Positions 10,680 to 24,346 of a stretch of 64,000 bases of DNA are shown here, in pieces. Below the pieces are notes generated by a model that saw nothing but the letters and a program-made list of their open reading frames with translations, was not told the DNA's origin and made no database searches. The stretch comes from Trichodelitschia bisporula (Eukaryota > Ascomycota > Dothideomycetes > Phaeotrichales > Phaeotrichaceae), in the NCBI GenBank assembly GCA_010356995.1, contig ML996693.1, forward strand, positions 930,001-994,000, given 5' to 3'. How positions within the stretch are numbered: the first letter of the stretch is position 1; every line of letters begins with the position of its first letter. A program made the translations under genes and the position numbers.

Positions 10680-11002
10680 GCGCCCTCTTCTTCAGCAGCC
10701 CACACTAGGCGAGCCCATCGATGAAAAGAGAAGCCGAAGGCTGACCATCAAATATTGTGCCAGTGAACCCCTATATGAGGTGCATACCGAACGGACTTCT
10801 CCCATATTGTGCAATGCGGGGAGACCGGCGGCAAGCTTTCCGCCTTCGTGGGCGCGGAGAGCTCTGACAAAAAAGTGTATGAGGAGGAGAGAAAGAGGAG
10901 AAGAGGGGAGGAGGGCGGTACTTATACCCTCCTCGCGGGGACGGCCGGCTGATGAGAGAAGCAACGAGGGATTCGCCGGCGATACTGGGAGGGAAGGGGG
11001 GG
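10680..11002 (-). repeat. Three-copy unit, copy 1 (snRNA-like)
   Basis: First of three related units, oriented by its TATA-like box (TATAAGTA, minus strand, 10926). In minus orientation it has the TATA box, a pyrimidine-rich spacer, a GTCAGAGC block starting at 10868, a GGCGG...CCGCC hairpin, an ATTGCAC segment flanked by TCTCCC/GGGAGA and, 112 nt from GTCAGAGC, an AATATTTGA site. It is the most diverged copy: the inner part of the ATTGCAC stem is lost, and the next hairpin is replaced by a different one. Its upstream region resembles that of copy 3. Confidence 0.85.
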
Positions 11003-11360
11003 CCTTTGGGGGGGAGGTGCTTAAGAGTCTTGAAGAGAGCAACTTCCGGCTCACGAAGGCAATCTGCTATTAACAGATCTGAATGGCCTCGTGTTGATGT
11101 AGACTTGAGGGAGCATTACTGGACAGGAAAGAGCAGAGTATGCATGATGTGATGTGCACTAATGGGAGGAAGGAGCATCGGACATCGTGCATCCATTTTT
11201 GAGCGTTTCTCAACTCTCTTCTCTTCTTTATCTCTCATCAAACTCTTCACTTGAAATGGTAGCCATGGCACTCGTCAAGTCTATGCTTCCATTATAAGCA
11301 GCCACGCATGATTTCAGAAACAAAACACCAACACTCCCACCCAGCCGCCCTCCCTATCAA

Positions 11361-11632
11361 GCGCCCTCTTCGTCAACAGCCCGCACAAGGCGAACTCATT
11401 GATGAAAAGAGAAGCCGAAGCAGTAGACCATCAAAAATTGCGCCAGTAGAACCCCGGGATGGGGGCCTATACTCGGACCTCTCCCACGCTGTGCAATGCA
11501 GGGAGACCCGAGGCAAGCTTTCCGCCTTCATGAGCGCGGATAGGCTCTGACAGTCAGAATGGAGAGAAGAGGAAGAGGAGAAGGGTCGCAGAGGGTGGTA
11601 CTTATAGCTCCTCGCAGAGACGGTCGGATGGT
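11361..11632 (-). repeat. Three-copy unit, copy 2 (snRNA-like)
   Basis: Second unit, with the TATA box at 11606-11601 (minus). GTCAGAGC starts at 11551 and a consensus Sm-like AATTTTTGA starts at 11439, again 112 nt on. The stem around ATTGCACA is kept, with one C-G pair changed to T-G. It is close in sequence to copy 3. A plus-strand frame of about 56 codons is open in copies 2 and 3 but is shifted in copy 1. Confidence 0.87.
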
Positions 11633-12099
11633 TTGGGGGATTAACGGAGTGTTTCTCCGGCTCGAAGGGGAGGGTAGGCGTTGGACGCTGGTACAGAAGG
11701 TGTTGAGGCCGGGGGAGAAGTCGTTGACGCTACGGGGGAAGGTATTGGCCCTTGGGGAGAAGGTGTCGACGCCGGGGGAGAAGGTGTGGATGTTAGAAGG
11801 GGAATTAATGGAAGCAAATATTCACACATGCGAAGGGTACGGTGTGAAGTGAAGATTGAGAAAAAGACAGCAAAAGGAAGAGAGTCGTGAGGTTCTCAAG
11901 AACAGATCAAGATGCTTCCCGATGCTCCTTTCTTCAACCACGAGCACGTCGTCGTTGTCTGTCTCAGGCGTACGCATATCAAGACATGTGCGCCTTCCCC
12001 AAGAGAGGTATGTCCCTCCCAAAGCAAATGACGTTATGCTGCCTTAAAATCATACCTATACAAATGCCTCGATCCCTCGTCCACCAACATCAACTCTTC

Positions 12100-12411
12100 C
12101 TCAGCGTCCCGCACAAGGCGAACCCATTGATGAAAAGAGAAGCCGAAGCAGCAGACCATCAAAAATTGCGCCAGTAGAGCCCCGGGATGGAGGCCTATAC
12201 CCGGACCTCTCCCACGCTGTGCAATGCGGGGAGACCGGCGGCAAGCTTTCCGCCTTCTTGAGCACGGATAAGCTCTGACAAATAGAATGAGGAGGAGAAG
12301 AAGAGGAGATGTGGGGAGAGGGGCGATACTTATAGCTCCTCGTAGAGAGGGTCAGCTGATGAGGTAAGGTCGGCGAGGGTTGAGGCGGCGATACTGGAGG
12401 GAAGGGGGGGG
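12100..12411 (-). repeat. Three-copy unit, copy 3 (snRNA-like)
   Basis: Third unit, with the TATA box at 12334-12329 (minus), GTCAGAGC starting at 12279 and AATTTTTGA starting at 12167, again 112 nt apart. Predicted hairpins in order are GAGC/GCTC, GGCGG/CCGCC, TCTCCCCGC/GCGTGGGAGA closing an ATTGCACA loop, and CCGGG/CCCGG extended by AGAG/CTCT, followed by the Sm-like site. The upstream region shares a CCTTCCCTCC-AGTATCGCCG block with copy 1. Confidence 0.87.
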
Positions 12412-23029: not shown

Positions 23030-23101
23030 AGCTGAATGGCGCAGCGGAAGCGCGCCGGGCTCATAACCCGGAGGACGGTGGATCGAAACCACTTTCAGCT
23101 A
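23030..23101 (+). tRNA. Initiator tRNA-Met (CAU)
   Basis: The 72 nt sequence folds into a full cloverleaf: acceptor AGCTGAA/TTCAGCT, D stem GCGC/GCGC, anticodon stem CCGGG/CCCGG around loop CTCATAA, and T arm with loop ATCGAAA. The A1-U72 pair and an A instead of T at position 54 (ATCG in place of TTCG) mark the eukaryotic initiator. A run of six T at 23105-23110 is the RNA polymerase III terminator. There is no intron. Confidence 0.97.
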
Positions 23102-23511: not shown

Positions 23512-23641
23512 ATCCAAGTGCTCGGGCTTTACGCGTGGCAGTGAAGATTCGTCTGAGCCCGTGTTATTGCTAGTTGAAAACTACATTCCTGACCACTCCA
23601 GTTGGTCTTCGGATCGGCTGGGAATTTTTGAACCTCAATCT
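23512..23641 (+). ncRNA. U4 spliceosomal snRNA
   Basis: The predicted RNA begins ATCCAAGTGCTCGGG, aligning with the yeast U4 5' end. The kink-turn 5' stem-loop that binds Snu13/15.5K reads GTGAAGATTCGTCTGAG. The U6-pairing region TTATTGCTAGTTGAAAACT is near-identical to the human and yeast U4 consensus. A strong hairpin with a TTCG loop follows (CCAGTTGGTC/GATCGGCTGG), then a consensus Sm site AATTTTTGA at 23623-23631. The exact 3' end is not visible; about 130 nt fits the family. U4 pairs with U6 and joins U5 in the tri-snRNP. The gene lies between the initiator tRNA and SmF. Confidence 0.92.
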
Positions 23642-24346
23642 GTTTATCTTTGTTTTCCTCGTCGGTGCTTTCGCCTGGTTGCGGGAGGTTGAAGAGGATT
23701 TTGCTTCGTGTGTGTGGAGAGGGGTGATGGCTCTTGCGGGCCATGACAGGAACAAATTTGTCACGCCCGGACGATGATGCCATCTCGTTTCCGTGGCCCT
23801 CTTCACGTTCCGAGAGTAATGCTGCGTTTAATTGACTTGTCCGACTGTGCTCGGTGTCGAGGCGGGTCTCATGACGCAGTTACATCTCCATGTACCTTAT
23901 TTACTATGAGGGTCGCTTGAAGGAAGGCACGTCGTTGATGAGGTGCAAGAGTGCTGCTAGCGAGCAAGTCGTGAATGCTTGATTGATAACGGACTGATGG
24001 GGCATTGCGTTCGGACTGTTGGAGGAAGCAGTGCCTTGCAGCCCTTTGCATGTGTTCACAGTTCTCCAGCAAGTATCATGTATCACTCCATGCGTCAAGT
24101 GAACCTGAATCACAATCTGAATGCTTTTGCTGTTGCGCCTAAACCCCCGTGAAAGCCGCCCAGCTCTGGTATCCCGTACAAACGCCTGCCTAGCCAGACG
24201 ATCGATGCCTCCCAGTATACACGCTGTGCCATCAGCTTCGCTCGCGCTTCTGCACATACCGACGCGACATACAAAAGTAGCCACTCTCGCAGTAGCCCAT
24301 GCATTCATTCCATTCTGCCTAGTTCTTTCGTATCGCGGCCGGTGTC
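23642..24346. other. Convergent spacer, U4 / SmF
   Basis: No supported feature is visible. Confidence 0.5.

Follow-up and report, generated by a model that had tools for sequence, protein, structure and literature searches.

Three U1-like units in tandem

The window, a stretch of 64,000 nt of DNA from Trichodelitschia bisporula, carries three units in tandem on its minus strand, here called A, B, and C. Each consists of TATAAGTA, a pyrimidine spacer, GTCAGAGC, and an Sm-type site, an arrangement put forward in the original prediction and borne out by a script check. The start-to-start distance from GTCAGAGC to the Sm-type site is 112 nt in all three units, also as predicted. The spacer between the end of TATAAGTA and the start of GTCAGAGC had been given slightly too long, at 50-53 nt; it measures 47, 47, and 50 nt in units A, B, and C, respectively. 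These lengths differ because the 5' arms differ (9, 9, and 12 nt), and the distance from the first TATA base to the predicted +1 (AT[AT]C) is 46 nt in every unit. The whole window has TATAAGTA at three minus-strand sites and one plus-strand site, and GTCAGAGC at five minus-strand sites (the three units and two other places) and no plus-strand site. Pairwise alignments of the units reach 79-88% identity over 261-328 nt (E 1.6e-60 to 2.2e-90), and the shared layout is therefore not due to chance. Unit B is flanked by two inverted copies of a dispersed element (11167-11294 and 11806-11933) that are 69% alike. The features of the units are as follows, where R1 denotes a model built from 15 U1 copies with the 5' arm left out.

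Unit A, all on the minus strand:
12327..12334, TATA box (TATAAGTA), 46 nt before the predicted +1 (script)
12280..12288, putative 5' arm AUUCUAUUU (canonical AUACUUACCUU), with +1 placed by canonical U1 alignment and the constant TATA distance
12272..12279, GTCAGAGC (script)
12156..12279, U1 body with helix H, stem-loops I-III, and Sm site (R1, 100.6 bits)
12138-12285, RF00003 match (49.4 bits, E 8.7e-11)
12219..12225, ATTGCAC, the U1A-type loop of stem-loop II (sequence and alignment)
12159..12167, Sm-type site AATTTTTGA (script)
12094..12140, snRNA-type 3' element (alignment; related elements by eye at U2, U4, and U6)

Unit B, all on the minus strand:
11599..11606, TATA box (TATAAGTA) (script)
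11552..11560, putative 5' arm AUUCUGACU (alignment)
11544..11551, GTCAGAGC (script)
11428..11551, U1 body (R1, 98.9 bits)
11410-11560, RF00003 match (46.0 bits, E 8.4e-10)
11491..11497, ATTGCAC loop (sequence)
11431..11439, Sm-type site AATTTTTGA (script)
11366..11410, 3' element (sequence and alignment)

Unit C, all on the minus strand:
10919..10926, TATA box (TATAAGTA) (script)
10869..10880, putative 5' arm AUACACUUUUUU (alignment)
10861..10868, GTCAGAGC (script)
10745..10868, U1 body, the most diverged of the three (R1, 83.3 bits)
10729-10878, RF00003 match (33.7 bits, E 3e-6)
10809..10815, ATTGCAC loop, its closing C-G pair lost (sequence and alignment)
10748..10756, Sm-type site AATATTTGA (script)
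10685..10730, 3' element (sequence and alignment)

Units A-C are almost certainly tandem, diverged paralogues of the U1 snRNA gene, as judged from alignment and motifs. In a relaxed search, all three match the U1 model RF00003 full-length (model positions 1-166), with scores under its gathering cut-off of 69.5 bits. The R1 scores listed above came from a search of the whole window with filters off, in which the next-best match, on the strand opposite unit C, reached 14.7 bits. The bodies are 69-75% identical to that of the canonical U1 copy L011. In U1, the U1-70K-type motif of the stem-loop I (SLI) loop is UCAnGAAGG, and the U1A site is the stem-loop II (SLII) loop AUUGCAC closed by C-G. The SLI motif is intact in units A and B and reads CCACGAAGG in unit C. 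The AUUGCAC loop, already noted in the original prediction, is found in all three units, with its closing C-G pair present in A and B and gone in C. An Sm-type site lies 3' of the junction in each unit; unit C carries one change in the SLI loop and one in the Sm site.

The 5' end of U1, ACUUACCU, is complementary to the 5' splice site. Such an end is absent from units A, B, and C, consistent with the original description of snRNA-type genes that have hairpins and an Sm-type site and lack the canonical U1 5' end. Because this defining end was tested for and is absent, the units are U1-derived variant snRNA genes, set apart from U1 snRNA proper.

Two other origins had been raised. A search of the window at gathering thresholds yields U4 and one tRNA only, as would be expected if the units formed a novel Sm-class family with no relation to known snRNAs, the original proposal. 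However, the relaxed U1 matches and the alignment of the units with nine canonical U1 copies refute this idea by homology and leave it next to no probability. The U1 body was probably overlooked earlier, its 5' end being gone and its stems altered. Fragments of a dispersed transposon, the other possibility, might have been suspected from the first DNA search, in which 43 of 57 matches fall into the spacer DNA that separates the units (query 424-704 and 1202-1409), with several places hit on both strands; they are of the same kind as the dispersed element flanking unit B. Yet these 43 lie outside the units, and the other 14 are the window itself and U1 loci; a transposon origin is thereby refuted for the units and is vanishingly improbable. 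A spliced-leader RNA was also set aside by reasoning, given the whole-length U1 alignment and a short arm that differs between copies.

U1 copies and snRNA gene layout in the genome

At least 16 U1-like loci are present in the 25.65 Mb genome, nine with the canonical 5' end AUACUUACCUU and seven with an altered one. A whole-genome RF00003 search at E up to 10 gave 15 matches (weakest E 3e-5); ATACTTACCTTG, the canonical 5' end, is present in nine of them and absent from six. Just one of the 15 passes the RF00003 cut-off (73.9 bits), and eight of the nine canonical copies fail it as well. The Rfam cut-off thus conceals most U1 genes here, with 14/15 matches below it. At the same loose E, 9 of 14 control genomes also give matches, none over the cut-off, and very weak U1 matches alone therefore mean nothing. 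The 16th copy, on contig C5 (L021:2259-2383, 86 bits), was found by R1, and its U1A-type loop is changed to AUUCUAC. The count of 16 is a lower bound, with R1 run on the fetched loci and the window. On 40 other loci (224 kb), R1 matched 10 times, each time at a known U1 locus, and an exact-motif pattern found 14 loci, likewise all known, missing two copies with changed motifs. Units A, B, and C form one clade with a support of 100/100 and are therefore not independent of one another.

On C5, two altered U1 copies (L021:2211-2440 and L021:1486-1668) stand head to head, with starts about 600 nt apart; one of them has the changed U1A loop. Another copy, L018 (C19:443066), carries AUACUUACUAU, in which the intron-pairing part is intact and two exon-pairing bases are changed; it could favour donors with A at -1. 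Among U1 proteins, the U1-70K N-terminal family has one matching locus. A U1-C-type zinc finger (MPRFYCDFCDIYLSH) lies on C3, split across two adjacent matches, and a further zf-U1 match lies on C7; the zf-U1 search also passed the cut-off in one control, E. coli.

Common to all 15 aligned U1 copies are a TATA box and a pyrimidine-rich spacer, a start of the form CAT[AT]C, and a 3' element whose end lies near GAGGAAGAG. The resemblance to the promoter of the U4 gene noted originally is correct and extends to U1, U2, and part of the U6 genes. By eye, the TATA box and pyrimidine-rich spacer are seen at the eight U2 loci read (of 11 matches; L029-L036), at four U4 loci (L039-L042), and at three of five U6 genes (L024-L026). 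The U6 copies L027 and L028 are without this layout. A related 3' element was recognised by eye at most of the U2, U4, and U6 loci read and is hardly recognisable in the U4 copy L042. This element would be the signal for snRNA 3'-end formation. U6 is normally a Pol III gene, and an snRNA-like 3' element after the T-run of U6 is unusual. A U2 copy on C15 (L056; C15:268200-268900, minus strand) scores 45.7 bits, just below the cut-off of 46. A stretch with an inverted repeat of about 20 nt at its borders breaks up the 5' branch-site region of this copy; the TATA box and 3' element are retained. The single U5 match shares its orientation with a U4 gene about 400 nt away (C10:542823-543456). In the window, a tRNA-Met (23030-23101) lies about 400 nt upstream of the U4 gene (23512-23646), both on the plus strand.

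Conservation and folding of the units

Likeness among the three units follows the gene layout. The bodies are 93, 82, and 80% alike, the 59 nt before +1 are 79, 76, and 73% alike, and the 3' element regions are 86, 79, and 81% alike. In contrast, the outer flanks are 51-57% alike against 51-55% in shuffled sequence. The upstream flank was taken from 242 to 102 nt before +1 in unit A, with the matching stretches of B and C, and the downstream flank as about 200 nt from 66 nt past the body. In BLAST, units A and C can be aligned to 125 nt upstream of +1 (12413).

The 5' arms of the three units are 67, 58, and 42% alike against 49% in shuffled sequence, which is not above chance at this length. 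In the six copies of the first set that lack the canonical end, likeness is 28% at arm positions 5-11, 82% in the SLI loop, 90% in the SLII loop, and 97% in the Sm site. Arm positions 1 and 2 are unchanged in all seven altered copies, position 5 in three, and position 6 in two. Of the RNA regions compared, the one that normally base-pairs with the 5' splice site is thus conserved least, in genes that otherwise resemble each other. In U1 at large, few known RNA sequences are as conserved as this 5' end. Arms so unalike would suit either a loss of constraint or a new specificity.

With a hand-supplied U1 structure and 12 distinct rows aligned, 93.0% of 455 pair cells are standard. In these rows, two-sided cells number 20 against 6.5 in shuffles (0/500 as high), and pairs with a two-sided change number nine against 4.7 (4/500); further pair types show no excess over shuffles (24 vs 27.4). 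When the partner is slid by 1-3 columns, 41-48% of cells still pair. A model-fitted alignment of 16 copies, which is biased towards the structure, gives 94.7% standard among 493 cells and 24 two-sided cells against 6.7. Changes in the stems are partly compensatory.

Pair keeping was evaluated from the canonical copy L011, with the stem substitutions of each copy placed at random. Of 38 pairs, units A, B, and C keep 33, 35, and 32 against 29.6, 29.0, and 28.3 in simulations (P 0.022, 0/5000, and 0.007, respectively). Double changes number 5, 7, and 5 against an expected 2.0, 1.8, and 1.3. Changed pairs still pair in 11/16, 13/16, and 9/15 cases and no longer pair in 5/16, 3/16, and 6/15. Among other copies, P is 0.003 for both L018 and L023 and 0.15 for L021. 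The damaged 16th copy also passes, with 35/38 pairs kept against 32.4 (P 0.031), and the test therefore separates live from decaying copies poorly. The compensatory changes may also predate the change in the arms and go back to a functional ancestor that the three units share.

When single sequences are folded together with the 3' part, unit C takes a U1 fold, and units A and B, L018, and the canonical copies L014 and L016 do not. When the body alone is folded freely, U1 pairs in the model register number 8/33 in unit A, 20/35 in B, and 25/32 in C; the canonical copies form 33/38 in eight of nine cases and 19/37 in L016. The minimum-energy free folds of the bodies of B and C have the U1 layout in a slightly different register. 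Forcing helix H and stem-loop I changes the energy from -50.4 to -46.8 kcal/mol in unit A, from -46.3 to -46.0 in B, and from -41.1 to -36.3 in C. The cost is thus 3.6, 0.3, and 4.8 kcal/mol, against 0-0.1 for the nine canonical copies, and the 16th copy loses 9.7 kcal/mol. In helix H, the variants have GUCAG against CUGGC, and the canonical copies have GUUGG.

Given the likeness of promoter, body, and 3' element, the random level of the flanks, and the partly compensatory stems, the genes appear to be under selection as snRNAs. By the same comparisons, the 5' arm, which normally does not vary, looks free or retargeted. Duplication limited to the gene unit, or gene conversion, could mimic such selection.

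The 5' arms and possible roles of the units

The window arms pair poorly with consensus donors. At three donor sites, the best pairing energies of the arms AUUCUAUUU, AUUCUGACU, and AUACACUUUUUU are -1.7, -3.5, and -4.1 kcal/mol, respectively, against -7.8 to -12.3 kcal/mol for the canonical arm on the same sites. A broader intron sample was drawn with a simple gene finder from 204 kb (the window and C2:1-140000), yielding 131 introns in 56 gene models. The finder is crude: for the window's Arp3 gene it called two introns, one apparently wrong, against five short introns seen by eye (donors GTAAGC, GTAATT, GTAATC, GTACGT, and GTGAGC). Predicted introns in the 204 kb have donors that are mostly GTRNGY and CTRAC branch sites; a simple count of intron motifs showed no excess over reversed sequence. 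Short introns with CTRAC branch sites, along with a Het-C protein, point to a fungal genome. The 103 introns of 38-75 nt were used for pairing, with 3000 random GT sites as controls. The canonical arm and those of A, B, C, L018, L021, and L023 were compared, each including the first G of helix H, and the 16th copy was left out.

Over the 103 introns, the mean duplex energy of the canonical arm is -5.40 kcal/mol against -2.98 in controls. The arm of L018, which keeps AUACUUAC, gives -4.22 vs -2.32 kcal/mol, and that copy could still be able to read normal donors. L021 (-3.40 vs -2.65) perhaps reads a subset of them, and L023 gives -2.16 vs -2.37. Among the window arms, unit C (-2.76 vs -2.27) would pair with normal donors weakly at most, unit A gives -1.08 vs -0.78, and unit B gives -2.92 vs -3.28. 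At the 25 donors that are weak for canonical U1, the energies are -0.01 vs -0.05 for A, -2.48 vs -3.00 for B, and -1.60 vs -1.55 for C, so that no window arm is clearly better than the controls there. Among the 103 predicted short introns, no donor class clearly matches the window arms, nor does this sample offer a cognate class for units A and B.

From these features, the units would seem, on balance, to be expressed as variant U1 snRNPs that pass over ordinary 5' splice sites. Each unit would be transcribed from an snRNA gene layout with a TATA box, a fixed start, and a 3' element. The RNA could form the U1 four-way junction with its U1-70K-type and U1A-type loops and Sm site, and would be assembled with Sm, U1-70K, and U1A proteins into a variant U1 snRNP. 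Such particles would not select ordinary 5' splice sites. Their new arms might pair with a few other targets, or they might act independently of the arm, for example in the control of transcription or of 3'-end formation. Expression and selection of the units as snRNPs is somewhat likelier to be true than false; specific targets for the new arms are rather unlikely.

Disabled copies are a serious rival to functional snRNPs. The units would then be U1 duplicates that lost their arm and are drifting, with a likeness that reflects recent origin or gene conversion. The seemingly unconstrained 5' arm agrees with this account, as does unit A, which does not fold cleanly as U1 either with its 3' part or in the model register. 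Decaying snRNA copies do seem to exist in this genome, judging by the 16th U1 copy, with its changed loop II and its loss of 9.7 kcal/mol on forcing, and by the C15 U2 copy, which kept its TATA box and 3' element around an interrupted branch-site region. However, drift does not readily account for promoter, body, and 3' element staying alike next to flanks at the random level, nor for the AUUGCAC loop retained in all three units. Stem pairs are also kept beyond random placement in all three, although the 16th copy passes that test as well, and gene conversion would presumably have made the arms uniform as well. Pseudogenes are a real possibility but not the favoured account.

A special case of variant snRNPs is a retargeted U1 in which each arm reads its own non-standard 5' splice sites or other RNA sites, as engineered or human variant U1s do. 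Seven different altered arms within one genome would suit it, and L018, L021, and, slightly, unit C pair better with donors than with GT controls. A non-canonical arm also gives the lowest energy at 60 of the 103 donors, a raw count without control (L018 25, unit B 14, L021 9, L023 5, unit C 4, and unit A 3). Against it stand units A and B, whose arms differ little from controls or fall behind them, and the weak canonical-U1 donors, at which no window arm does clearly better; the intron sample behind these comparisons is 204 kb read by a rough gene finder. Retargeting is doubtful. The wider notion of a natural family of reprogrammed U1 snRNPs, whose differing arms would direct a U1-70K/U1A/Sm particle beyond normal 5' splice sites, is a speculative one of the same low probability.

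Canonical U1 (RF00003), with nine copies here, can be aligned with the units from end to end and resembles them in SLI and SLII loop motifs, Sm site, promoter, and 3' element; it differs in the 5' arm, which is replaced in the units. Human variant U1s are also U1 paralogues, some of them altered at the end that recognises the 5' splice site and where proteins bind (PMC5159530 and PMC13172311). As described there, vU1.3/.4 have a C-to-T change in that end, and the 5' end of vU1.8 is almost intact. In the units, the arm is largely replaced and changed in length. Drosophila likewise has several U1 genes, some differing in sequence (PMC10645366). There, the copies have single-base differences in or near the Sm site and not in the 5' arm, and deletions of single U1 copies are reported to affect transcription and 3'-end formation rather than splicing. 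Among the literature matches listed, from a collection with few subscription papers, no title or opening of an abstract concerned fungal U1 copies with replaced 5' ends. Genes that keep the promoter, body, and protein-site motifs of U1 with the end replaced would separate its splice-site role from its other roles, and arm-replaced U1 genes would form a natural parallel to engineered U1 tools.
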